From a virus: DNA of 64,000 nt. The DNA lies in the IMG/VR virus record IMGVR_UViG_3300033047_000025, positions 1 through 64,000 of that record, one strand, 5' to 3'. The position numbers and the translations under genes are program-made. The notes beneath the pieces are model-generated. The model had not been told where the DNA came from. It worked only from the letters and a program-made list of their open reading frames with translations, and ran no database searches. This document shows, piece after piece, positions 20,264-57,868 of this stretch; position 1 is the first letter of the stretch; every line of letters begins with the position of its first letter.

Positions 20264-23200
20264 ATGGCGAAAACCCACGTTTACGGTCTGTTTGGCGACG
20301 CACATGTCCGTGGTAACAGTGGGTCTGATGCGGGTAGCTCTCCGCCTGTCGTGCTGGGTCCAGCAGAGCAGATCCTGTTTTTCTTCGGGAGCCACAATCT
20401 AGTAGCTGGTACCGACGAGAATACTACGATTGAGCAGACGATCGCGGCGGCTGCTACTGACGTTCGTGCGAGGGTGGTCGCCATCCCTAGCGCGTCGACT
20501 GTCATCGTAGAGCCAATCGTACCGTCTACTACTGCCCTGTATCCAGCTCAGCTAAATGCAGAGCGTAGGATCATGTGGAGTTCAACGGACGCAATCACAT
20601 TCAATAGGGGTGCTCCACAAGGCTTAAGAGTCTTCTCTTACACGAACTCGCAGTTGATTGAGCAGCTCAACGACGATGAGTTACTAAAGCCAACTGAAGA
20701 TAGTGTATTCTGGGACCCGAATGCTCGTTTAGCCCGTACGGTCAGCATCGAAAACTTCGACGGGTCCGGGTCAGAAGCGGTATACCCAGGAGACAAGCTT
20801 ACTGCATCTAGCGGAGGAGACTTCCTGGTAGTTGGTGTGAGTAATGTAGACAATGCCGCGAAGACGGCTACGCTTCACGTAGCAAACTGGAATGGGTCAA
20901 TTGCTAACGGCGATACTCTGGCGACTGACCATACCACGCCGAACCAGTCTTGGACAGGTGTGTCTATTGTTGCGTCCACAGGAATCGGCGCCGCACAATC
21001 AGCAGGGTCGTGGGTCCCGCACTGTGCCTCTCCATCTCTAGGATTCACGATAGAGCAGCTTGAGAGTGACACTGTTGATGTTACTGTAGGTAGCATGTGG
21101 GAAGTTCCCCCAAGGGGAAACGGTAATATTAACTCCACCAAGTCTACCTCTCCACAGCTAGGGCCAGATACCAAAATCGTTCGCAACGCGATTCGAACTT
21201 ATGAGAACCTAGAGAGTGACGATCAGGGCATCCGACTTGTCAAGTTCGGATCGAATGAGACGACACTCACAGACACTGGAGGCCTAGGTGGCGTCACGCT
21301 GCAATACGTATCGGTATCCTCACCATCTGGTACATACACCACAGGAGAGGTAGTTACTTCTGATGACGCAGTACCATGGTCTGCAAAGGTAGCTGGATAC
21401 TTCGGTAGCATTCTCTATGTGCACACCACGAACGGTGAGGTTCTAGGTGCATCAAAGACTATCACGGGCGCCACATCGGGTGTGACATCGACCTCCGCAG
21501 GCGCCGCAGTCGGCTGGCAGAAGGGATCCTCATACTGGAACGCCATGGCGGCAGAGCGCACATCTGCAGAGGGTGCAACAGGCTTCCTACATAACGGATC
21601 TGCAGCGAAGTGGGAGCGCATCTTCCTGATGGTCTGGGAAGGTGAGGTTGGCCCGTATTCGATCCTGTATGGGGCCGACGCAGCGGCTGGGTATGCAATG
21701 TCTATAGAGATGACACTGACTTCCCAAGCAGCGCGTCGTGCACAATGGACCACGTTTGCTGCGGATCTGAGGGCTCTGCTTGACCCTTCAGGGGGTGTTA
21801 GTATGCACATCCGTACCTGGGTCCACCATAGCGGGTCTCAGTCTGAGTCGATGACTCCTACCCTTGGTTTAGGAGTAGTCTCTGCAGCTACTCGTGCAAA
21901 TATCCTTGAGCTTCCATCATACGTGACAAACTTCTCGGTTGTAGACTCCGAGCAGCGCGGCCACCTAATGGAAAGCGGTAGAAGTGCAAGCTACGGTGCA
22001 GGAGATACTGATACCGACCTTTTCCTAAGAACTAGTGACTACATTGACCTAGGTCAGGCACTGTGGGATGGGAGGTCGAACAGGGCAATCACTGCGCCGG
22101 CCGGAAACCTTCAGATCCTACCTATCGGGGTCATTAGTGGAAGCCAGTCACAGATGCTGGGAACGGCCAATTACAACAGTGGGGTATCTGGCGTAGCCTA
22201 TATCGACAGAGACCCTGAGAAGTACGCATCGGCGAGCTTCCTGGCTCATGGTAATACCGTCATCGACACCACGGATTCGAATGCTGTCGTATTCAACTTC
22301 CAGGAAGATGAATTGGAAACGTGGGATGTGAACCTGAATGAGAACACGTTCAACATCGCGGCCACGGCCATAGGAACAACTGGGCCTTGCCCACCCATCG
22401 TTCAGCGCATGAAGATGAGGTACGGTTCTGGTGGAACATCCGGCCTGTTCGGATTGTTCAAGGCCGTTGTGGGTGGGTCATGCCTCAACCCTGATATCCG
22501 AGTCGCTACCGGGTGCTGGCAGCCGCTCCTGACTTCCAGACCCAGCACAGGGCCGGTGTCGACCGTTGTGACTCACGTCAACAACAAAGCAGTCTTCACT
22601 GCTGCAGGAGCATTCAGCACGTTTGGTAGCGCCGACTACACTGTCGTCATCACGGGCGGTGCCCTATTCCAGGGAGCCATGGGAAGAAACACAGTTCTTC
22701 ATGGTATCAATATCGCCAGTAACATCACGTCTAACTCGTTCGAGATTGACGACGCATCTGGACTCATCGAGAACGGGACAGAGACACTCACCTTCACATT
22801 CGGTCCGCCGCCACTTTGGCCTACCATGGAAGCCAAGTGGAAGCTGTTCGTTGCGGACTGTATTCAGAAGGGCTACATACCACGGCCAGTGTGGCTATTG
22901 CAGGACCAGGGCGAGAGCGACATGTTGGAGGTATCTAGCTACAAGCAATACCTAGACGAGTTCTGGACCGCCTTCGAGGACCTGTGTGATATGCGGGAGT
23001 CTACTTCCGACTCCGACATTGCCAAGTGCATCGTGCAGGTACATAAATACTCTCCGTTCGGTAATACGCCAATCGCTGATATTAACACGATTAGGGGTCT
23101 CCAGTCGACTAAGTCCAGCACACTTGCAAACTGCGTTCTTGTAGACCCGACGCCCCTGTCACTAGAGGTTAGTGCAGATAGCCCTACTCCTAATATCTCT

Positions 23201-23392
23201 GTGCCGCCATGGCCACGTAGGTACAGGCTTGAGAATGGTATCCACCTAACGTTGTTCGCCATGCAAACGAAGGGCTACATGATCGACGCAGCACTCGGCT
23301 CTCTTTCGTCTATCCCATCGCACCCCAACGCTGACGTGTCCGTAGGCTATGGAGCTTCCGATGGCACGGGCAGGCTGGAGCAACAGGCATGA
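20264..23392 (+). CDS. Large virion protein with SGNH (sialate acetylesterase-like) domain, 1042 aa
   Basis: The C-terminal 420 residues resemble SGNH/SASA carbohydrate esterases: block I GSQSQM with likely nucleophile S629, WLLQDQGESD at residues 877-886 matching the typical WxQGESD, and GIH with H994 in the final block. The Asp normally three residues before that His is Asn991 here, so activity is not certain. Residues 1-600 are beta-rich, with repeated Thr/Ser/Gly segments as in virion appendages. The gene sits between coat and connector genes, so it may be a head fibre or decoration that removes acetyl groups from host surface sugars. This location is unusual for an esterase. Confidence 0.7.
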   Translation: MAKTHVYGLFGDAHVRGNSGSDAGSSPPVVLGPAEQILFFFGSHNLVAGTDENTTIEQTIAAAATDVRARVVAIPSASTVIVEPIVPSTTALYPAQLNAERRIMWSSTDAITFNRGAPQGLRVFSYTNSQLIEQLNDDELLKPTEDSVFWDPNARLARTVSIENFDGSGSEAVYPGDKLTASSGGDFLVVGVSNVDNAAKTATLHVANWNGSIANGDTLATDHTTPNQSWTGVSIVASTGIGAAQSAGSWVPHCASPSLGFTIEQLESDTVDVTVGSMWEVPPRGNGNINSTKSTSPQLGPDTKIVRNAIRTYENLESDDQGIRLVKFGSNETTLTDTGGLGGVTLQYVSVSSPSGTYTTGEVVTSDDAVPWSAKVAGYFGSILYVHTTNGEVLGASKTITGATSGVTSTSAGAAVGWQKGSSYWNAMAAERTSAEGATGFLHNGSAAKWERIFLMVWEGEVGPYSILYGADAAAGYAMSIEMTLTSQAARRAQWTTFAADLRALLDPSGGVSMHIRTWVHHSGSQSESMTPTLGLGVVSAATRANILELPSYVTNFSVVDSEQRGHLMESGRSASYGAGDTDTDLFLRTSDYIDLGQALWDGRSNRAITAPAGNLQILPIGVISGSQSQMLGTANYNSGVSGVAYIDRDPEKYASASFLAHGNTVIDTTDSNAVVFNFQEDELETWDVNLNENTFNIAATAIGTTGPCPPIVQRMKMRYGSGGTSGLFGLFKAVVGGSCLNPDIRVATGCWQPLLTSRPSTGPVSTVVTHVNNKAVFTAAGAFSTFGSADYTVVITGGALFQGAMGRNTVLHGINIASNITSNSFEIDDASGLIENGTETLTFTFGPPPLWPTMEAKWKLFVADCIQKGYIPRPVWLLQDQGESDMLEVSSYKQYLDEFWTAFEDLCDMRESTSDSDIAKCIVQVHKYSPFGNTPIADINTIRGLQSTKSSTLANCVLVDPTPLSLEVSADSPTPNISVPPWPRRYRLENGIHLTLFAMQTKGYMIDAALGSLSSIPSHPNADVSVGYGASDGTGRLEQQA

Positions 23393-41953: not shown

Positions 41954-42265
41954 ATGAGTAAGTGGATCAAATTGGCGGCGATTCTGACAGCATGTTCTCT
42001 GTTGGGGTCTTGTGCGGCTGCATCGCAGGCTACGCGAGACGTTCTTGACAAACTGGTCAGCGATGGCGCTATGACCACCGTTACACGCGACGCGATCATG
42101 TCCTCAATGTCGAGCGGTTGGCAGGTGTTAGCTGACTACGCAATCAACATTGTCGGAGGTGCAATCCTGGCCTACACTGGCATCACCATCCGACGGGGTG
42201 CCCCAGCCGTTGGGTCAGAACGCGAGGCTCGCAATGCAGCCAGGAAAGCATCGAAATCAGTCTAG
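41954..42265 (+). CDS. Lipoprotein-signal membrane protein, lysis candidate, 103 aa
   Basis: N-terminal signal with lipobox LLGSC (Cys about residue 20), then a second hydrophobic segment near residues 58-80 and a basic C-terminus. Could be a holin or spanin-like protein; the two features together do not match one named family. The stop codon shares bases with the stop of the converging RusA gene (42262-42265). Confidence 0.5.
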   Translation: MSKWIKLAAILTACSLLGSCAAASQATRDVLDKLVSDGAMTTVTRDAIMSSMSSGWQVLADYAINIVGGAILAYTGITIRRGAPAVGSEREARNAARKASKSV

Positions 42266-49122: not shown

Positions 49123-50844
49123 CTAAAACGGCAGGTCTTCGAGGTCACCAAGGACCAATGGACCCGGCTCGTCCTCGGTCTCATCTCCGGCTTCGCGCTC
49201 GATATAGAGACGATCGGTCACTGACGGAAATGATCCGCTCTCATTCACGCGCAGATGTGTCGGTGGTGTTAGTTCGGACAGTCGGTCCATCGCTTCGTCC
49301 GTGCTCTCCGGCGCCGGCATATCGCCGCCGAGCGAGCCCCATGCCTGACTGGCCTTACGTCGCATAAAGTCGCCATGACTGAAGCAGAGCCACTCGCTGA
49401 CATCGGTGACCATATTGATGGTGTAAGTAATCCTTAGAGAGTCAGGCTTGCCGGCCTTCTGATGGCGCCTAGTCCTCATGTTCTGTACGCTGACCGCTGG
49501 GATTTCCGCTGGGCCAACATCATCGCTGATAACCGCAAGATACGACGGGCTAGCTTCGTGCTTGACTATTTCCCTGTCGGGAAACTCGTGCCCGCATGCT
49601 GGACAGACAAGCACGCCGGAAGGGCACAGTTCCTGACACTTGGGGCACTCTTTGACGGGTGGCGTGCCGTCCCCTTCGCCGGGCTCCCGAACACGGATGT
49701 TGTCCAGTGGACCATGGCGCTCAATGTTTCCGGCAAAATCTAAAATCAAGCAATTTGATTTTTCTGGAGCAGTGCGTAGCCCACGCCCCACGATCTGAAC
49801 GTGAAGCCCCGGAGACATGGTTGGACGCATTAGGGCGATCAGGTCAACGTGCGGCGCATCGAATCCAGTCGTCAGGACGCCAACCGAGACCATGGCCCTG
49901 ACTTTCTGGGCCTTGAAGTCCGCGATCATGTCGCGTCGCTCGGCCTTCGGAGTGTGACCCATGACTAACGAGCACGTGTAGCCGCGCCGCTTGACTTCGT
50001 CCACGATCATCTCAGCGTGCTTGCGACCCGAAGCGAAGAACAACCAACCTTTGCGACTCTCTCCCCTGGAAATCACCTCGTCGACAGCGCTGGAGACATT
50101 ATCTCCATCCATAGCTGCGCCTTCTAGCTGACCACTATTGAAGTCACCGCCGGACTTTGCTACGCCCTCGACGTTGATCCTGCTCTTCGTGGCCTTGCTA
50201 GTGACTCGACACAGGTGGCCACGATCCATCAGTTCTAGCAGCGGAATGTCGTAGACGAGTTCGTCAAACAGCTTGCCGACACCCTTGTGAAGGTATCCGC
50301 TGTCGGTTCGGAATGGTGTCGCTGTCAGGCCGATTACGCGCATGTTTGGACGCATCGTTCGGAGGGCTTTGAATACCGATAGGTATTGTCCGCTACCTTT
50401 CTTTGGAATTAAATGCGCCTCATCGACAATCACGAAGTCTGCTGCGCCTATCTTGCCAAGCGCCCGACTACCAGACTGGATCCCAGCGAACAAGATCGGA
50501 GCCTCGTGCTCCTTGCGGCCTAGACCAGCAGAAAAAACACCGACAGGAGCGTCAGACCAGTATGACTTGAGCGCCGCTTCATTCTGCTCAATCAGCTCCT
50601 TGACGTGCGTCAACATCATGATGCGCGTACCTGGTTTCATCTTCCACGCCTCGTGACAGATGCCGGCAAGAATCATCGACTTGCCTGATCCTGTCGGAGC
50701 CGAGATCAGAGGATTGCCAGTCGATGTGTTGCGCATGTAGTCCCACACCGCCTCGATGGCGTCGGACTGGTAATCGCGAAGCGTGATGCCTGGGGACGGG
50801 GGAGCGTAACCAGACCAGTTGTCGTAGATACTCGGTAGCTTCAT
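49123..50844 (-). CDS. SF2 DEAD/DEAH-type helicase, 573 aa
   Basis: Helicase motifs: I APTGSGKS (49-56), II VDEAH (141-144), III GLTATPFR, VI QIVGRGLR. After the second RecA domain comes a zinc ribbon (CPKCQELCPSGVLVCPACGHEF). The type matches phage replication/recombination helicases of the SSL2/RadD group. Probably unwinds DNA at forks or recombination intermediates. Confidence 0.85.
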   Translation of the reverse strand: MKLPSIYDNWSGYAPPSPGITLRDYQSDAIEAVWDYMRNTSTGNPLISAPTGSGKSMILAGICHEAWKMKPGTRIMMLTHVKELIEQNEAALKSYWSDAPVGVFSAGLGRKEHEAPILFAGIQSGSRALGKIGAADFVIVDEAHLIPKKGSGQYLSVFKALRTMRPNMRVIGLTATPFRTDSGYLHKGVGKLFDELVYDIPLLELMDRGHLCRVTSKATKSRINVEGVAKSGGDFNSGQLEGAAMDGDNVSSAVDEVISRGESRKGWLFFASGRKHAEMIVDEVKRRGYTCSLVMGHTPKAERRDMIADFKAQKVRAMVSVGVLTTGFDAPHVDLIALMRPTMSPGLHVQIVGRGLRTAPEKSNCLILDFAGNIERHGPLDNIRVREPGEGDGTPPVKECPKCQELCPSGVLVCPACGHEFPDREIVKHEASPSYLAVISDDVGPAEIPAVSVQNMRTRRHQKAGKPDSLRITYTINMVTDVSEWLCFSHGDFMRRKASQAWGSLGGDMPAPESTDEAMDRLSELTPPTHLRVNESGSFPSVTDRLYIEREAGDETEDEPGPLVLGDLEDLPF

Positions 50845-51170: not shown

Positions 51171-51418
51171 TACCGGCTACGGACTTCCTTCATCAGATTC
51201 ATCCCTTCGACCCCAGCAGTGTAGTCACTCAAGATCGTCGACTCTGCGTCGGATCCCCTGAGTCCGTAGAAGCCCAACTGAGCCTCTATGCACTTCCAGC
51301 CTTTCATCAGATCATCCATGTCGAGGGCATCAGCTAGAGCCTCCGTGAGAGCGCTGTCAATGACGTCAGCATTCGACATCGAACGAGGTGCGTAGATGTT
51401 TGGTTCGTCGTCGTCCAT
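51170..51418 (-). CDS. Hypothetical acidic protein, 82 aa
   Basis: Helical and acidic with no recognised motif. Its start overlaps the lipoprotein gene stop by one base. Confidence 0.5.
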   Translation of the reverse strand: MDDDEPNIYAPRSMSNADVIDSALTEALADALDMDDLMKGWKCIEAQLGFYGLRGSDAESTILSDYTAGVEGMNLMKEVRSR

Positions 51419-51792
51419 TACAGGTAAATGACAAATTGTCCGAACTGAGTGGAGAGCAACACTTGTCCGTTCAAGACGATAGTGTTCCAGTTTCCAGTGG
51501 ATCCGTCACCCTGAGTAATGAACGTGCCTTCGCCGTTGTAGTAGACTGACCCGTAAAAAAACTCGGACCCATAAGCGGCCGAATACGATCCAGATGTGTC
51601 ACTGGATGAGTAGATGACCAGCTCCGCGCCAGCCGAGTAGTAAGGGCCACCTGAGATCGTGGCCACGTCAGCAAACCCGTCTGGTCGCAAACCTCCAGAG
51701 TAAGTGACGACGTAAGTGGTTTTTGGCTGGTCATCCCTGCAAGAGGGTAATGCGACCAGGGTGAGGAAGGCGAGCATTCTGATGATGTTCAT
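51418..51792 (-). CDS. Exported lipoprotein, 124 aa
   Basis: ATG 51792 gives MNIIRMLAFLTLVALPSC: a short signal with lipobox LPSC, so Cys18 is probably lipidated. The mature part is beta-rich with many Tyr, Ser and Gly. Starts further upstream would destroy the signal. No family recognised. A surface role such as superinfection exclusion is possible but unproven. Confidence 0.65.
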   Translation of the reverse strand: MNIIRMLAFLTLVALPSCRDDQPKTTYVVTYSGGLRPDGFADVATISGGPYYSAGAELVIYSSSDTSGSYSAAYGSEFFYGSVYYNGEGTFITQGDGSTGNWNTIVLNGQVLLSTQFGQFVIYL

Positions 51793-51882
51793 TTGTGTCA
51801 TTCTACAGGCTATCGACCTCCTGGTCAATGCTTCTTTAGCTTGATCACTGGCGATCAGTTTCCGGGTGAAATGCCCGATTGT

Positions 51883-51898
51883 CGATCGCATGCGATCG
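51883..51898. promoter_or_regulatory. Perfect 16-bp palindrome
   Basis: CGATCGCATGCGATCG reads the same on both strands. It lies in the 159-bp gap upstream of the lipoprotein gene, together with an outer CCCGAT/ATCGGG pair and a TGATC/GATCA pair at 51842-51858. Likely a protein-binding site or the stem of a structured leader. Confidence 0.5.
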
Positions 51899-51909
51899 GG
51901 TGAATAATC

Positions 51910-51961
51910 GTCGAGGGCTAGGAATCGAACCTAGCGACCTCCCTCTCTGAGCTACCTCGAC
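51910..51961 (-). tRNA. tRNA-like element lacking an anticodon arm (tRNA remnant)
   Basis: On the minus strand the 52 bases begin GTCGAGG and end CCTCGAC, a 7-bp acceptor helix. A perfect T arm is present: CTAGG, loop TTCGATT, CCTAG (complement of 51918-51934), preceded by AGGTCG as in a variable loop. After TAGCTC, the normal start of a D arm, there are only about 17 bases before the T arm, where a normal tRNA has about 39; the anticodon stem-loop is missing. No CCA is encoded. Probably a tRNA gene with an internal deletion, or a special tRNA-like RNA. It overlaps the stop of the 51952-52086 gene. Confidence 0.5.
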
Positions 51962-52086
51962 TTATTGTCACCCTTACCGTTGCCGATTACTTCCACCAGA
52001 AACCAAGCGACTAGCACCGGAATGACGACCATGGATAGAAGTAATAGAGCGTCTATGAGTCGGGAACGCTCAGGCAAAGATTCCAT
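51952..52086 (-). CDS. Small membrane protein, 44 aa
   Basis: ATG 52086 lies one base after the ThyX stop and has GGGGGAG before it. One membrane helix (ALLLLSMVVIPVLVAWFLV) and a polar, basic tail. Its last codons lie in the tRNA-like element. Confidence 0.55.
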   Translation of the reverse strand: MESLPERSRLIDALLLLSMVVIPVLVAWFLVEVIGNGKGDNKSR

Positions 52087-52087
52087 G

Positions 52088-52894
52088 CTACTCCCCCAGG
52101 TGATACCGCACCGACTGCCATCCATCGAACACGCCATACCTGCCTTCGACAGGTGTGACAACGTGTTCCATAGGAGAAGCGTGCTTGTCCTGCTCTAGCC
52201 TACGGAACAACTGCAGGTCGGACTCAGCGTCGCGATTACCGAAAAAGTTAAGGTAGCTGGCTCGAGCACATCTTGCCGCGCTGCATCGGGGCTGTTCGTC
52301 CTTAGGAATGTGAAACAACTCATTCGGCAACAGGAACGGAAGGTGCCAATCGTCCTTCTTCTTTACGGCTGGGCGAGAGGCAGCCTGCGCCTGCTTCATC
52401 TTCTGCGCTAGGTTCTGGATCTCGGGCTGCGCGTCATGTGCCAGTCGCAGTCCGTAGAAATGATCCATCCAAGGACCATTGAAAGTGAAAACAGCGGAGA
52501 TCGTGAGGAACGGCTCAAGGATACGGTTAGCATGCTGCTTGTGCACGTTAGCATCAACCAGCGACTGGGCGGAAGATGCTGCAGATCGAGACGCTCGGAT
52601 CCACTCGCGCCGAGCAGTTTCAGGGCTGGTGACCTCCGTGCCGGCAACCATGCCTCGCTGATTCGAAAGGAAGTGAATCGGCACAACCGGGTCTGTTAAA
52701 ACCTGATGGATCATCCTCTGCACAGGTACGGCACGGGATGACTGAGCATTGCGCGCACACATCCGGTGCGACATCATCTGAGGATGGATGAACCGAGGGT
52801 AGCGCAACAGGAACGTAGTAACGCGGGATGACAACTTTTCGTTGACGGAGTCCGCAATTACCTCAGCACTCACGTGGTCGTATATCTCGATCAT
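52088..52894 (-). CDS. thyX: FAD-dependent thymidylate synthase, divergent ThyX, 268 aa
   Basis: The ThyX signature RHRxxSxNxxSxR appears as SHRMCARNAQSSR at residues 42-54: H43, R44, N49, Q51, S52 and R54 are kept, while the first Arg and the sixth-position Ser are replaced by Ser and Ala. The overall length and helical layout fit ThyX. It makes dTMP from dUMP using methylene-tetrahydrofolate and FAD; dCMP deaminase at 11294-11761 would supply dUMP. ATGA overlaps between it and the upstream gene. Confidence 0.75.
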   Translation of the reverse strand: MIEIYDHVSAEVIADSVNEKLSSRVTTFLLRYPRFIHPQMMSHRMCARNAQSSRAVPVQRMIHQVLTDPVVPIHFLSNQRGMVAGTEVTSPETARREWIRASRSAASSAQSLVDANVHKQHANRILEPFLTISAVFTFNGPWMDHFYGLRLAHDAQPEIQNLAQKMKQAQAASRPAVKKKDDWHLPFLLPNELFHIPKDEQPRCSAARCARASYLNFFGNRDAESDLQLFRRLEQDKHASPMEHVVTPVEGRYGVFDGWQSVRYHLGE

Positions 52895-53151
52895 AGGCTG
52901 GCCTTACACCTAAGGTGGCCAACAAGAGTGACTAGATCGGTATCTTGAAACATGTACATGCCACACCCAGTCAATTCAAACGCGGCACATCGGTCATTAG
53001 TACAACCTCCACCGGCGGTCATCACTTCCCAGGAGTTGATCGACATTTTGACATAGGTCCCTTTTTCAGATGGATGAATGAACACAGACTTAACGCCAAG
53101 CGTCGACAACGGCACGCGCTCACAGGTTTGTTCGATAGATATCTTAAGCAT
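52891..53151 (-). CDS. Hypothetical Cys-containing protein, 86 aa
   Basis: Beta-rich small protein with four Cys (GGGCTNDRC, TGCGMY). Overlaps ThyX by four bases, so probably co-translated with it. Not recognised. Confidence 0.5.
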   Translation of the reverse strand: MLKISIEQTCERVPLSTLGVKSVFIHPSEKGTYVKMSINSWEVMTAGGGCTNDRCAAFELTGCGMYMFQDTDLVTLVGHLRCKASL

Positions 53152-53365
53152 GGTTTCTCTTAGGGTGAATTGATCCGTCTTGGGATCGTGAATTGATGAT
53201 CTCCATGATGTCGATCACATATGCTACACGGCTCATGAACCACGAGTCGTCTTCGTCGGCCTTCCTCCAAACCATTGTCCCGTATGAATCAACACAGATT
53301 CCTGTCCGCCCGTTCTCCATGACAATGTCGCCGCTCTTGGCGCCTTCTGATCCGGTCCTAAACAT
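53144..53365 (-). CDS. Hypothetical protein, 73 aa
   Basis: Starts with a KSGDIVMENGRTGICVD stretch that looks like a small beta barrel, followed by a helix. Overlaps both neighbours by eight bases. Not recognised. Confidence 0.5.
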   Translation of the reverse strand: MFRTGSEGAKSGDIVMENGRTGICVDSYGTMVWRKADEDDSWFMSRVAYVIDIMEIINSRSQDGSIHPKRNHA

Positions 53366-53552
53366 AGTGCATGGCCGCGATTCCTAGCGAGAAGATCAAG
53401 AGCATAGCGAAGATCCCCTGGATGTTGATGATAGAGTTATCCAATTTCATCGGAAATATATGGGACTTTCTGATGACCTCGCAGAGCAGGCAGAGTGACA
53501 GTAGGACGATGCTAACAGCTAGGGACCAGTAGGTGCTAATGGCTTCAATCAT
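53358..53552 (-). CDS. Small two-helix membrane protein, 64 aa
   Basis: Two membrane segments at about residues 8-26 and 42-62. Overlaps its neighbours. Could be a small holin-like or host-membrane protein, but the place in the early operon argues against a lysis role. Confidence 0.5.
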   Translation of the reverse strand: MIEAISTYWSLAVSIVLLSLCLLCEVIRKSHIFPMKLDNSIINIQGIFAMLLIFSLGIAAMHYV

Positions 53553-53935
53553 TACCCACCCATGTAGATGTGATCTCCAGTCCGCGTGATCAAGCCCTCT
53601 AGGATCATATCGTCTACGGCCTTGTCGAACTCCTCGCGCGGCCGGTAGGAACCGATGGCAACCTTGATCCGAGCAATCTTGACGTGCTTGCCTTTTGGAG
53701 CAATCTTGTTCATGTGGCGCTCAATCAGGTCCTCCATTTTTGTTCGCGGGCGCCCGTGCCGGCCTCGGCGTGGCCCGCGAACCATGCTTGTGATGTAGGC
53801 CTTGAGTCGCGCTAGGTTGTCCTTCTGACCCCTGCTCCTGCAGGAGGTAGGCACAGTGTTGACGATGGTCTCCACGGCCTTTAGGACCCGTGGCGGAAAG
53901 TCTTCTTCTGAATCAGTCATCGACACAGCATACAT
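53552..53935 (-). CDS. Putative winged-helix DNA-binding protein, 127 aa
   Basis: ATG 53935 or ATG 53920; the open frame to 54178 runs antiparallel into the upstream gene and is rejected. The middle is very basic (GPRRGRHGRPRTK), and the C-terminal 50 residues (KIARIKVAIGSY...AVDDMILEGLITRTGDHIYM) have the layout of a winged helix. Probably binds DNA. Confidence 0.5.
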   Translation of the reverse strand: MYAVSMTDSEEDFPPRVLKAVETIVNTVPTSCRSRGQKDNLARLKAYITSMVRGPRRGRHGRPRTKMEDLIERHMNKIAPKGKHVKIARIKVAIGSYRPREEFDKAVDDMILEGLITRTGDHIYMGG

Positions 53936-53961
53936 GGCGAAGTGCAAAAAACAATCAATAA

Positions 53962-54546
53962 CTACCCGATGACGAAAATGTTCTCGTCGCTGACGTAGAG
54001 ATGCATCCCAGGTTCTAGCCTGTAGCTCTGGACGCTGACGACTGCCCCCAAAAGAAGGGCAGTCGGTGGTATGCGGACCGTAAGGAAAGATGCCTGCCAA
54101 CCAGAAGGGGGCGAGACTATCGAGTAATCGTCCCAGGGAGACGGACCAAGCCACTCTAAGGTTGAAGTTGCCAGCCACAGCGCGGAAGGATACCCGAATA
54201 CCACATTGTGGCCCACCACCGCGTAAGGTAGGTTGTAGGATACAGAGCTTAGCCAGACCAATGAGAACCAGTGCATCAGGTCGGCGTGCGGCTGGTAGGT
54301 CGGGACGGGGAGGTCAGCTAGAGCGGCTGAGAACAGATAGGTCGTGCCTCCTATCCTGGCACGTCGACCTAGACCATTATCAGGCAACGTATTGCCTGCC
54401 TCGGCGACGATTCTCACACGTTGCTGATTCGGCGTGCCCCCTGATTGAGTTCTAAGCGTGACCCCTACCCTGACGGCGTTAAGTGGTGCCTGCGCATGGA
54501 TGGCGCTAGCAAAAGATAGAACTGCGCAAATTATTGCTGCCCGCAT
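53962..54546 (-). CDS. Exported protein with signal peptide, 194 aa
   Basis: MRAAIICAVLSFASAIHAQ is a clear Sec signal with cleavage after AxA near residue 18. The mature part is beta-rich and ends in HLYVSDENIFVIG, similar in style to secreted beta-sandwich proteins. AGGGAG precedes the ATG. No phage structural family recognised. One of three exported proteins in this operon. Confidence 0.6.
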   Translation of the reverse strand: MRAAIICAVLSFASAIHAQAPLNAVRVGVTLRTQSGGTPNQQRVRIVAEAGNTLPDNGLGRRARIGGTTYLFSAALADLPVPTYQPHADLMHWFSLVWLSSVSYNLPYAVVGHNVVFGYPSALWLATSTLEWLGPSPWDDYSIVSPPSGWQASFLTVRIPPTALLLGAVVSVQSYRLEPGMHLYVSDENIFVIG

Positions 54547-54657
54547 GACTGTCTCCCTGGTATCTTATTCTGAGTTCACTCCTGATTCCGTAATGGTTGT
54601 GTGTCCCTGGTGCATTTTCTATTGTGTTTTGTTTTAGGTTCCGATCCTATCTGTGTC

Positions 54658-54948
54658 CTATGCAGAACCGGGCTTAGACCCAAGGTGATGTTCTAAAGTA
54701 TCCGGGTATATGAATGGCTTCGTCCATTCAAGTGGATCCCCCACTACCTGGGTATACTTCTCCACGACCCACGGACTGCTTTTCTTTGATGGCTCAAAGT
54801 TGATTACAGGCATACATCTCTTCATAATTGAACGAAGATCATATATTGCGTCTAAGCATTGGTTGATTCGATTCTTGTCACTCGATTCAGCAATCTCATC
54901 GATCAGAAACTCTATAGCAAGTTTGATGCTTTCGATCTCGTTGGACAT
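54658..54948 (-). CDS. Hypothetical protein, 96 aa
   Basis: ATG 54948 overlaps the stop of the large exported protein (TAATG). Helical N-terminal half, polar C-terminal half. Not recognised. The 111-bp gap downstream precedes the 53962-54546 gene. Confidence 0.5.
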   Translation of the reverse strand: MSNEIESIKLAIEFLIDEIAESSDKNRINQCLDAIYDLRSIMKRCMPVINFEPSKKSSPWVVEKYTQVVGDPLEWTKPFIYPDTLEHHLGSKPGSA

Positions 54949-56813
54949 TACATCACCCCAGGTGGAATCCAGCCACCGCCACCTTCTGTCACCTGCTCCC
55001 ATATCTCCAGGGCGACAGCGTGATATGGTTCATGGAGCAAGATTACTGCAATGCCGGGAATCGCCCAAGTGCGTTCGTACCAGCCGGTCCGGTGACCCCC
55101 GAGGCCCTCCACCAGCTCAGATGCCGGCACGATCTCGCCGTTCCGCCATCCGGTATGGTCCCAGTGAATCCATCGGCCATCGGTCTGCTTGCGCCAAGCA
55201 TGGGCAAGGACAGCCTTCGCCGCTCGCAAAGCCAGATGGGAGCCCTCGACAGGCCCAAGTCGCGAGCATCCCAGATCGAGCCCATAGGCACCGAGAGACT
55301 GCTGATAATTCTGCTGTCCATATTGGTATCCGGTGAGCCCGCCAGTGATACGAGGGTCGCTCCTCGGGTCCCAGATGTCACCGGGCTTGTCGGTGAACGC
55401 CGGGATATAGACCTTTTCGACCCGGTCGCGCCACCGCTGTCGGACATGCAGGGCCATGTCGCGATCTTCGAGATTGTCCCAAAGGTGAACAGCGATGATG
55501 CCGGCATACCCGACAGCACGAGCCGCCCCTGGTGACGATGTTGCCTTGGCCGGGTCGACGGTTTCACCCATCAAAAAAAGTAGGGCTTGATTCCTTAACA
55601 GGTACTGAAGCGCTGGCGATCCAGTGTAGCGGGCTCCTGCAGTGAGGGTATTTGCTAACCAGTGCTGGCGATCCGGTCCCATCCAACCGCCAGAGGTGTC
55701 CCAGCCAGCGATAGCCCGGTTCTTTCCGAGTTGGTCTGAGCCAGAAGAATGGGGTCGACCTCCCCAAAGAACAAGGTTCGGGTGCGCGGCAGGATCGATC
55801 TGAGATCCGTCTGCTTCCAGGTAGTGGCTCGGACGGTTGGCCCACTTGCATGCGGACATGTAGACAACCCACTCAGCCCCTGCGGATCCCGGTAGCATAG
55901 GTTCTCCTCGTGCAAATAGCTGCTCCTCCTGAGCGCCTGACTGCCCGCTGTCTGCAGCGATAGCGAACGTTGGTCCCCAATCGTGAAGCCGTTCGGAAGC
56001 TGACGGGAAATGGGATCGAGCCCAGGAACGACCATCATACCCTTCGGGGTAAGTGGGGTTCCCGTCCATCAACAGGTTGCTAATACCGACCGCTCCGAGA
56101 CCCATGGCCATTACCACTTGAGCGCTAGACCAGCTCTCTACATCGAGGTGCCTGAGAAATAGCACAGTGAACGGCACGACCCTAGCCTGCCCATCCGCAA
56201 ACCGGGTCGCGTCGACAAGCGGTTGCCAGAACTGGCGCCCCATACCAATCACAACGCCATCACCGATTGTTAAGCGCATGTCTTCTGCAACTTCGAATAC
56301 GCCAGGAACGTTCGGGTTGCTCGAGGTGATCATAGCCTCACCGTGAACGTAGGGTTCACCTGGGTAGTGCCGAAGCCAAACGTCGGCACACATAGTGGCG
56401 CCAGTTCGGGCTCGCATATGAACGAGCCACGCTGCCCCATCGGCTCGTAGGCTGATCCATTCCATGGGGTCACCGTTCAGGAGCATCGGCCCGCCAGTCC
56501 AATCCACCCCACGGGGGGGTGCTAGCCGGAACCCAGACGGCGAGGCGTCGGAGAGGTCAATCACCTTCTCTTGCCCTGGAGACAGTGTGACGCGCAGGTC
56601 TACGACCCGAACATCACGGCCAACCTTCCGGCCAACCACGTAGTCGACGCCAGATACAGTACCAGCGTTATGTTCCGGGAACACGTCAATCGTAGTCCGC
56701 TTCCAGCCACTGAACGTGGTCGTGCCGTGATTTACCACGGTGACAGACTGCGCTGCGAGTGCGCCGGAGAGTAGGACGAGGAGGGGCAGTCTTTTCATAA
56801 TGGGTTCGATCAT
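54948..56813 (-). CDS. Large secreted protein, possible polysaccharide-active enzyme, 621 aa
   Basis: ATG 56813 overlaps the methyltransferase stop (ATGA); ATG 56798 is an alternative. The N-terminus MKRLPLLVLLSGALAAQ is a Sec signal. The first half is beta-rich (HYPGEPYVHGEAMITSSNP); the second has repeated Trp/Gly helices (WDTSGGWMGPDRQHWL...SPALQYLLRNQALLFLMG) as in alpha/alpha-toroid lyases and hydrolases such as exo-rhamnogalacturonan lyase relatives. That likeness is from pattern only; no catalytic residue can be named. Such a large exported enzyme within the replication operon is unusual. Confidence 0.5.
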   Translation of the reverse strand: MIEPIMKRLPLLVLLSGALAAQSVTVVNHGTTTFSGWKRTTIDVFPEHNAGTVSGVDYVVGRKVGRDVRVVDLRVTLSPGQEKVIDLSDASPSGFRLAPPRGVDWTGGPMLLNGDPMEWISLRADGAAWLVHMRARTGATMCADVWLRHYPGEPYVHGEAMITSSNPNVPGVFEVAEDMRLTIGDGVVIGMGRQFWQPLVDATRFADGQARVVPFTVLFLRHLDVESWSSAQVVMAMGLGAVGISNLLMDGNPTYPEGYDGRSWARSHFPSASERLHDWGPTFAIAADSGQSGAQEEQLFARGEPMLPGSAGAEWVVYMSACKWANRPSHYLEADGSQIDPAAHPNLVLWGGRPHSSGSDQLGKNRAIAGWDTSGGWMGPDRQHWLANTLTAGARYTGSPALQYLLRNQALLFLMGETVDPAKATSSPGAARAVGYAGIIAVHLWDNLEDRDMALHVRQRWRDRVEKVYIPAFTDKPGDIWDPRSDPRITGGLTGYQYGQQNYQQSLGAYGLDLGCSRLGPVEGSHLALRAAKAVLAHAWRKQTDGRWIHWDHTGWRNGEIVPASELVEGLGGHRTGWYERTWAIPGIAVILLHEPYHAVALEIWEQVTEGGGGWIPPGVM

Positions 56814-57868
56814 GGGGTTGATGGTGATGCGTCCGCTAACCTGGACTTGGAGATTTCTACGTATTCTTTGTTCATTTCGATGCCTGTGAAATCCACACCT
56901 TCTTTGATGCACGCTACGCCAGTAGAGCCGGATCCCATGAACGGGTCTAGGATTACGGTGTCCGATGGCATGCGCACCATACGGACTAGCCACTGCATTA
57001 ACGCTAAGGGCTTGACCGTAGGGTGGGTGTTGCCTTCGCCACGATCCTTCTTGGATGCCTTGGCGCAGTAAAAGAATCTGGACGCTGACTTGGTGTTTTC
57101 TGACCGTGCGGTCTTGGCATAGGGGGGTCCCATTTTTCCATAGCAGACATTGGTCTGACGATCTCTACCGTTGGCCTTCAAGTCGCCCTGCTGCCCTGGC
57201 GCTTCGGGGAAAGCATCCAACACTTCATCGCTGCCATCATGCACTACGTTGGCGGGCCAGCGACCGGCAGGCTGATCGAACGCCACGTCAGCCGTCTTAC
57301 CTGGGGCCATCATTCCGGCAGAGGTATCTGATCGTGATGCGCCAGGAATATCACTTCTATTTCCCTGCTGCCCGTAAGCTCCCCCATTCAGGTTATCGTC
57401 AGTAGCCACCCGACACCCATCCACGTTGATACCCGCCACACCATGCTCTAGTGCATTCGTAGCGAAGGTGCCTTTAAGCGGCTTCATGGCCAGGACGATC
57501 GGTTCCCATGCTGGCTTGAGGGCGGTGCCGTAGCCTTGCCACCCGTTGACCTTCTTGCCTATGTTGTGCGACTTCGGGAACCCTGAACCGTAGAGCCACA
57601 TGAGGCAATCACGAATCTGGAACCCGGCATCTTCGATGCTGCACGTCAGACGGTGGTAAGTTCGTGTGCCACCGAACACTAGCGCTATACCCCCAGGTTT
57701 GAGAACACGCAAAGCTTCGCGCCAGATATCGCTAGAAGGCAGAACTTTATCCCACCCCTTACCCATGAATTGGAGTGCATAGGGAGGATCGGTAACGATG
57801 GATGTCACCGAATTGCTCGGCATGTCCCGCATCGCGTCGAGACAGTCACCGTGTATAATTTCTATCAT
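56810..57868 (-). CDS. DNA amino-methyltransferase (N6-A or N4-C), 352 aa
   Basis: ATG 57868 starts MIEIIHGDCLDAM, the normal start of this family. Catalytic DPPY at residues 27-30 comes before the SAM-binding DPFMGSGST at 308-316, the beta-class order, with the HPTVKP block in between. The middle part is a target recognition domain. It probably protects phage DNA from host restriction. No cognate restriction gene is visible. The frame is open upstream for another 78 codons, up to the previous gene and beyond, but no start is convincing. Confidence 0.85.
   Translation of the reverse strand: MIEIIHGDCLDAMRDMPSNSVTSIVTDPPYALQFMGKGWDKVLPSSDIWREALRVLKPGGIALVFGGTRTYHRLTCSIEDAGFQIRDCLMWLYGSGFPKSHNIGKKVNGWQGYGTALKPAWEPIVLAMKPLKGTFATNALEHGVAGINVDGCRVATDDNLNGGAYGQQGNRSDIPGASRSDTSAGMMAPGKTADVAFDQPAGRWPANVVHDGSDEVLDAFPEAPGQQGDLKANGRDRQTNVCYGKMGPPYAKTARSENTKSASRFFYCAKASKKDRGEGNTHPTVKPLALMQWLVRMVRMPSDTVILDPFMGSGSTGVACIKEGVDFTGIEMNKEYVEISKSRLADASPSTP

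Follow-up and report, generated by a model that had tools for sequence, protein, structure and literature searches.

Phage enzymes that degrade polysaccharides are usually regarded as parts of the virion. The closest described structure to the protein analysed here belongs to PcRGLX, the exo-rhamnogalacturonan lyase of Penicillium chrysogenum that represents polysaccharide lyase family PL26 (PDB 5xq3, 5xqg, 5xqj and 5xqo; Pfam PF19501, PcRGLX_1st), and virus-encoded auxiliary carbohydrate-active enzymes form a further point of comparison. Our literature search found no relevant paper on Planctomycetota phages or secreted depolymerases. Here we describe a 621-aa protein encoded in a window of 64,000 nt from an IMG/VR virus record 66,647 bases long. 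The protein is probably an enzyme, a lyase or a hydrolase, that is exported by the Sec pathway and degrades polysaccharide of the host envelope or the matrix around it. Its family is undescribed: Pfam, PHROGs, NCBIfam and phage records do not contain it.

Gene surroundings and export signals

The genome is siphovirus-like: its plus strand carries the terminase, portal, capsid and tail genes, and replication functions are encoded on the minus strand. The gene for the 621-aa protein belongs to the replication block and not to the tail gene block; it is encoded opposite to every structural gene and is tightly packed with the genes for ThyX and the helicase, overlapping its neighbours at both ends. 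The features are as follows:

54948..56813, minus strand: 621-aa exported protein (signal peptide, aa 1-22; beta domains, about 23-243; alpha/alpha-toroid domain, about 254-621)
56748..56813, minus strand: Sec-type signal peptide of the 621-aa protein, ending ..GALAAQ (from the sequence and from alignment with relatives with and without a signal)
55422..55925, minus strand: putative active-site cleft of the 621-aa protein, residues 297-464 (the densest near-invariant polar cluster in family alignment A6)
53962..54546, minus strand: 194-aa protein with signal peptide, an orphan
51418..51792, minus strand: 124-aa putative lipoprotein with lipobox LPSC, an orphan
54658..54951, minus strand: small cytoplasmic ORF, whose start overlaps the stop of the 621-aa gene (ATGTAATG)
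56810..57868, minus strand: DNA N6/N4 methyltransferase, whose stop overlaps the start of the 621-aa gene (ATGA at 56813-56810)
52088..52894, minus strand: ThyX thymidylate synthase
49123..50844, minus strand: DNA helicase (phrog_16)

A preliminary description of this DNA had reported three exported proteins with Sec-type signals, co-directed with the helicase, ThyX and methyltransferase. All of these ORFs are present on the minus strand, and a crude signal rule, with 5 hits among 210 internal-ATG controls (2.4%), was positive for the three N-termini: that of the 621-aa protein (MIEPIMKRLPLLVLLSGALAAQ followed by SVTVVN, from the ATG at 56813, with an alternative ATG at 56798), that of the 194-aa protein (MRAAIICAVLSFASAIHAQ followed by APLN) and that of the lipoprotein (MNIIRMLAFLTLVALPSC followed by RDD, with an unusual Pro at lipobox position -2). 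The signal of the 621-aa protein has n-, h- and c-regions and small residues at the cleavage site. It is placed beyond doubt by relatives (four viral, L093, L095, L096 and L101, and two chromosomal, L097 and L098) whose hydrophobic N-termini are unrelated in sequence and all end ..AQ at the same alignment column. Sec export of the 621-aa protein is thus shown at the level of its sequence and its relatives. Export is not a property of the replication operon alone: a further exported ORF, the fourth, encodes a lipoprotein (MSKWIKLAAILTACSLLGSC) and closes the tail block at 41954-42265 on the plus strand, a position suggestive of a role in lysis.

The two small exported proteins had been grouped with the 621-aa protein as one system. 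That grouping is not supported: the 621-aa protein alone recurs in other viruses, and neither small protein was present in any relative examined, which rules out a conserved module of three. The 194-aa protein and the lipoprotein had no credible match in PHROGs, Pfam, NCBIfam or related viral loci. For the 194-aa protein, searches of viral contigs and 99 Planctomycetota genomes gave no credible relative; the two weak matches among those genomes (E = 5e-4 and 0.01) are not credible. The two genes are best explained as separate exported orphans, unrelated to the 621-aa protein.

Strand and gene overlap are what suggest that the minus-strand block is an operon and is expressed early. A promoter and terminator scan found no more sites than in shuffled sequences, an Rfam search of the early block returned chance-level matches only, and no tyrosine integrase was found in the record, whose 66.6 kb may not be the whole genome. 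Within the block, a tRNA-like sequence at 51905-51961 (minus strand) combines a D-like arm with a 7-bp acceptor stem and a T arm (CTAGG TTCGATT CCTAG), both perfectly paired. It has no anticodon arm and folds into a three-way junction (-20.8 kcal/mol, z = -1.5); ARAGORN called no tRNA there, and a tRNA relic, an attachment site and a mimic are candidate explanations. Elsewhere in the window, a 1042-aa protein encoded between the capsid and head-tail adaptor genes (20264-23392, plus strand) had no PHROG match. Its homologue (30% identity, E = 4e-95; L105:10826-14005) is in a virus that has a different terminase and also carries the 621-aa family. Just outside the window, positions G000:C1:66139-66576 (L092:2640-3077) are strongly repetitive and open in frames on both strands (RRQSDRR on the plus strand, GAGQIGAVKIG on the minus strand), possibly a pentapeptide-like repeat.

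Family, predicted fold and conserved residues

Single-sequence searches with the 621-aa protein against viral and genome contigs, and by tblastn against phages and plasmids, gave nothing real, nor was there a match in PHROGs, Pfam or NCBIfam; a search for related phages that started from the major capsid protein also yielded nothing. Alignment of the terminase identified the nearest phage (L010, which is G004; TerL 56%), which encodes a homologue of the 621-aa protein at 28-31%. From this homologue the family was grown step by step by iterated profile scans to 12 distinct sequences, namely the window protein, nine from other viruses and two from chromosomes of Planctomycetota MAGs. None of the 12 had a real Pfam match, NCBIfam gave nothing relevant and a PDB profile search was empty. 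An additional C-terminal domain of some 430 aa, itself with no Pfam match, is present in two viral members (L095:6868-8193 and the equivalent region of L096, ..GVNGHCNGRKFPILFAGR..). In L095 the gene is directly followed, near DNA polymerase A, by one for a Ro60-like protein (TROVE and vWA domains; L095:8200-9858).

The fold prediction that the preliminary description had proposed gave a confident model: AlphaFold2 with the 12-row alignment reached a pLDDT of 83.1 and a pTM of 0.87 (model m1c28806935f9), while the single-sequence fold was useless (32.9 and 0.22, respectively). The predicted architecture, N-terminal beta domains followed by an alpha/alpha toroid, is of PL26 type. In Foldseek the first PDB match was 5xqo, a PL26 lyase structure (E = 7.4e-4); behind it came GH92, GH76 and unsaturated glucuronyl hydrolases, all alpha/alpha-toroid carbohydrate enzymes. 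VIA-align superposed model residues 12-621 on 5xqg (Z = 11.0, 504 residues, rmsd 4.9). Epimerases and GH88/GH105 enzymes tie with PL26 on score over the toroid only; PL26 is the sole full-length PDB match, the other top-ranking structures covering the toroid alone. A Z near 11 for a toroid is within the range that common helical arrangements can reach, so full-length coverage and the chain of homology count for more than the Z score. This chain leads from the family (A6) to cellular Planctomycetota proteins (A8; hhalign 100%, E = 4e-48), from the N-domain of the latter to PF19501-containing proteins (A9; 97.6%) and from these to PcRGLX (E = 1e-85). Direct profile comparison of the family with the PF19501 proteins is weak (hhalign 2%), and we therefore do not file the 621-aa protein as PL26. 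Membership by sequence fails on this value and on the Pfam, NCBIfam and PDB-profile searches, none of which gave a relevant match.

Across the family, 62 positions are conserved in 11 or all 12 members, and the polar ones concentrate in residues 297-464, within the toroid. Near-invariant there are E297/Q298, R327, E333, H344, W350, H355, D360, W377, D381, R382, H384, W385, R432, R460 and R464; residue 297 is Glu in the window protein and Asp in all other members. This polar cluster has the look of an active site, and together with the modelled fold it is the ground on which we infer that the 621-aa protein is an enzyme.

Gene exchange, host and the two forms of the protein

Similarity between the 621-aa family members is at odds with similarity between the terminases of the phages that carry them. 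In the L010 virus a TerL identity of 56% goes with 28% for the putative enzyme, versus 21% (over 235 aa) and 49%, respectively, in the L099 virus, and the tree of the family pairs the window with L099 (support 100/100). The gene therefore moves between unrelated phages, and its behaviour as exchangeable mobile cargo among phages, probably those of Planctomycetota, is shown by these comparisons. The two chromosomal copies (L097 and L098; 43-45% identity) encode a single-module protein with a signal peptide and branch from within the phage part of the tree (90/95). Both lie near accD, with truD (in L097) and recB-like genes also close by; these neighbours rule out a prophage for the stretch seen. 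Indirect evidence points to Planctomycetota as the probable host phylum. Both full-length cellular copies come from it, it alone yielded full-length relatives in a single motif-based scan covering 84,980 species, and distant relatives occurred in 9 of 392 Planctomycetota genomes.

The signal peptide is present in five viral copies (the window, the L093 virus, L095, L096 and L101), as well as in both chromosomal ones, and absent from the other five (L099, L103, L105, L106 and L108), in which the frames start at the first beta strand. With half of the viral copies lacking it, export is not essential to the role of the family. Presence and absence require four changes on a tree that leaves out the signal region and in which several deep forks are unresolved. 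The location of the gene varies as well. It is among replication genes in the window and in L095; upstream of the terminase genes, on the same strand, in L105, L106, L101, L096, L108 and the L093 virus, in the last of which beta-helix/PKD spike-like genes are near; behind a beta-helix protein and upstream of the terminase in L099; and directly behind the tail-tip gene (phrog_1101), with an ATGA overlap, in L103. Early expression is thus not fixed as a family trait. Surface remodelling during the replication phase, as suggested in the preliminary description, does not extend to the family, most of whose other members lie on the terminase/tail strand and half of whose viral copies have no signal peptide.

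Proposed function and comparison with known systems

We propose that the 621-aa protein is made in the infected cell and exported by the host Sec system, and that it would then be released from the inner membrane or held outside it. The cleft in its toroid would carry the active site and cut a polysaccharide in the envelope of the host or in the matrix around it, and the loosened exopolysaccharide may allow progeny to leave or spread. Breakdown of polysaccharide was among the roles raised previously, and the predicted fold, the conserved polar cluster and the relatives all support it. The mode of cleavage (lyase or hydrolase), the substrate and the benefit are our reading of the same data.

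The same features could be accommodated by an auxiliary metabolic enzyme, that is, a secreted CAZyme with which the infected cell digests environmental polysaccharide rather than its own envelope. Planctomycetota chromosomes do carry secreted homologues at a conserved locus, PcRGLX_1st proteins are numerous in the phylum (6 of 21 genomes) and the gene is exchangeable cargo. We nevertheless consider a nutritional role unlikely, given that no tyrosine integrase was found in the possibly incomplete record, which makes a lasting benefit to a lysogen doubtful, and that signal-less copies, one of them in a tail operon, fit it poorly. Somewhat less probable still is a virion component, either a tail-associated depolymerase or a receptor-binding enzyme, with the signal peptide in the window being a relic of a host-derived gene. 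The signal-less copies in L103 (behind the tail-tip gene) and L099 (the closest copy, beside the beta-helix protein) and the spike-like neighbours in L093 speak for this, whereas the window copy has an intact, well-formed signal peptide and is encoded opposite the structural genes, overlapping the methyltransferase gene. The preliminary description had also offered receptor masking or superinfection exclusion, for which we found no specific support. An exported protein of this fold class could conceivably bind envelope glycans non-enzymatically, but 28 near-invariant polar or aromatic residues, most of them in the toroid, resemble an active site and not a drifting binding surface; pure binding is the least likely reading and, in our estimate, very improbable.

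The preferred interpretation, an exported polysaccharide-degrading enzyme, concerns the window copy; the signal-less copies, that of L103 in particular, suggest virion-borne use of the same enzyme. Tentatively, Planctomycetota phages may put it to two uses, in which the signal-less form sits on the virion tail and serves entry and the Sec-exported form clears polysaccharide outside the cell before or upon release, with gain or loss of the signal as the gene is transferred between unrelated phages. If so, infected cells themselves can become secretors of a matrix-degrading enzyme. What is new is a CAZyme-like family of Planctomycetota phages that switches between forms with a signal peptide and forms lacking one, and the family provides a handle on the phages of this phylum.

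Compared with described systems, the family resembles PL26 PcRGLX in its beta domains followed by an alpha/alpha toroid, matched over the full length, and is linked to it through cellular relatives (A8), but its members have about 600 aa rather than about 900, and they differ from it in lacking any Pfam match and in their weak direct profile comparison. With phage tail-associated depolymerases it shares a phage-encoded, putatively polysaccharide-degrading activity and, in some relatives, a signal-less gene in or beside the tail genes; its fold differs from the beta-helix spikes that adjoin some copies, and the window copy is Sec-exported and encoded away from tail genes. Like virus-encoded auxiliary carbohydrate-active enzymes, it is mobile CAZyme-like cargo with homologues in the host phylum, yet the family is previously undescribed, and its members have a signal peptide in some phages and none in others. 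The nearest cellular counterparts, the Planctomycetota homologues L097 and L098, are the same single-module, signal-bearing protein, but are chromosomal and stand beside accD, truD and recB-like genes.
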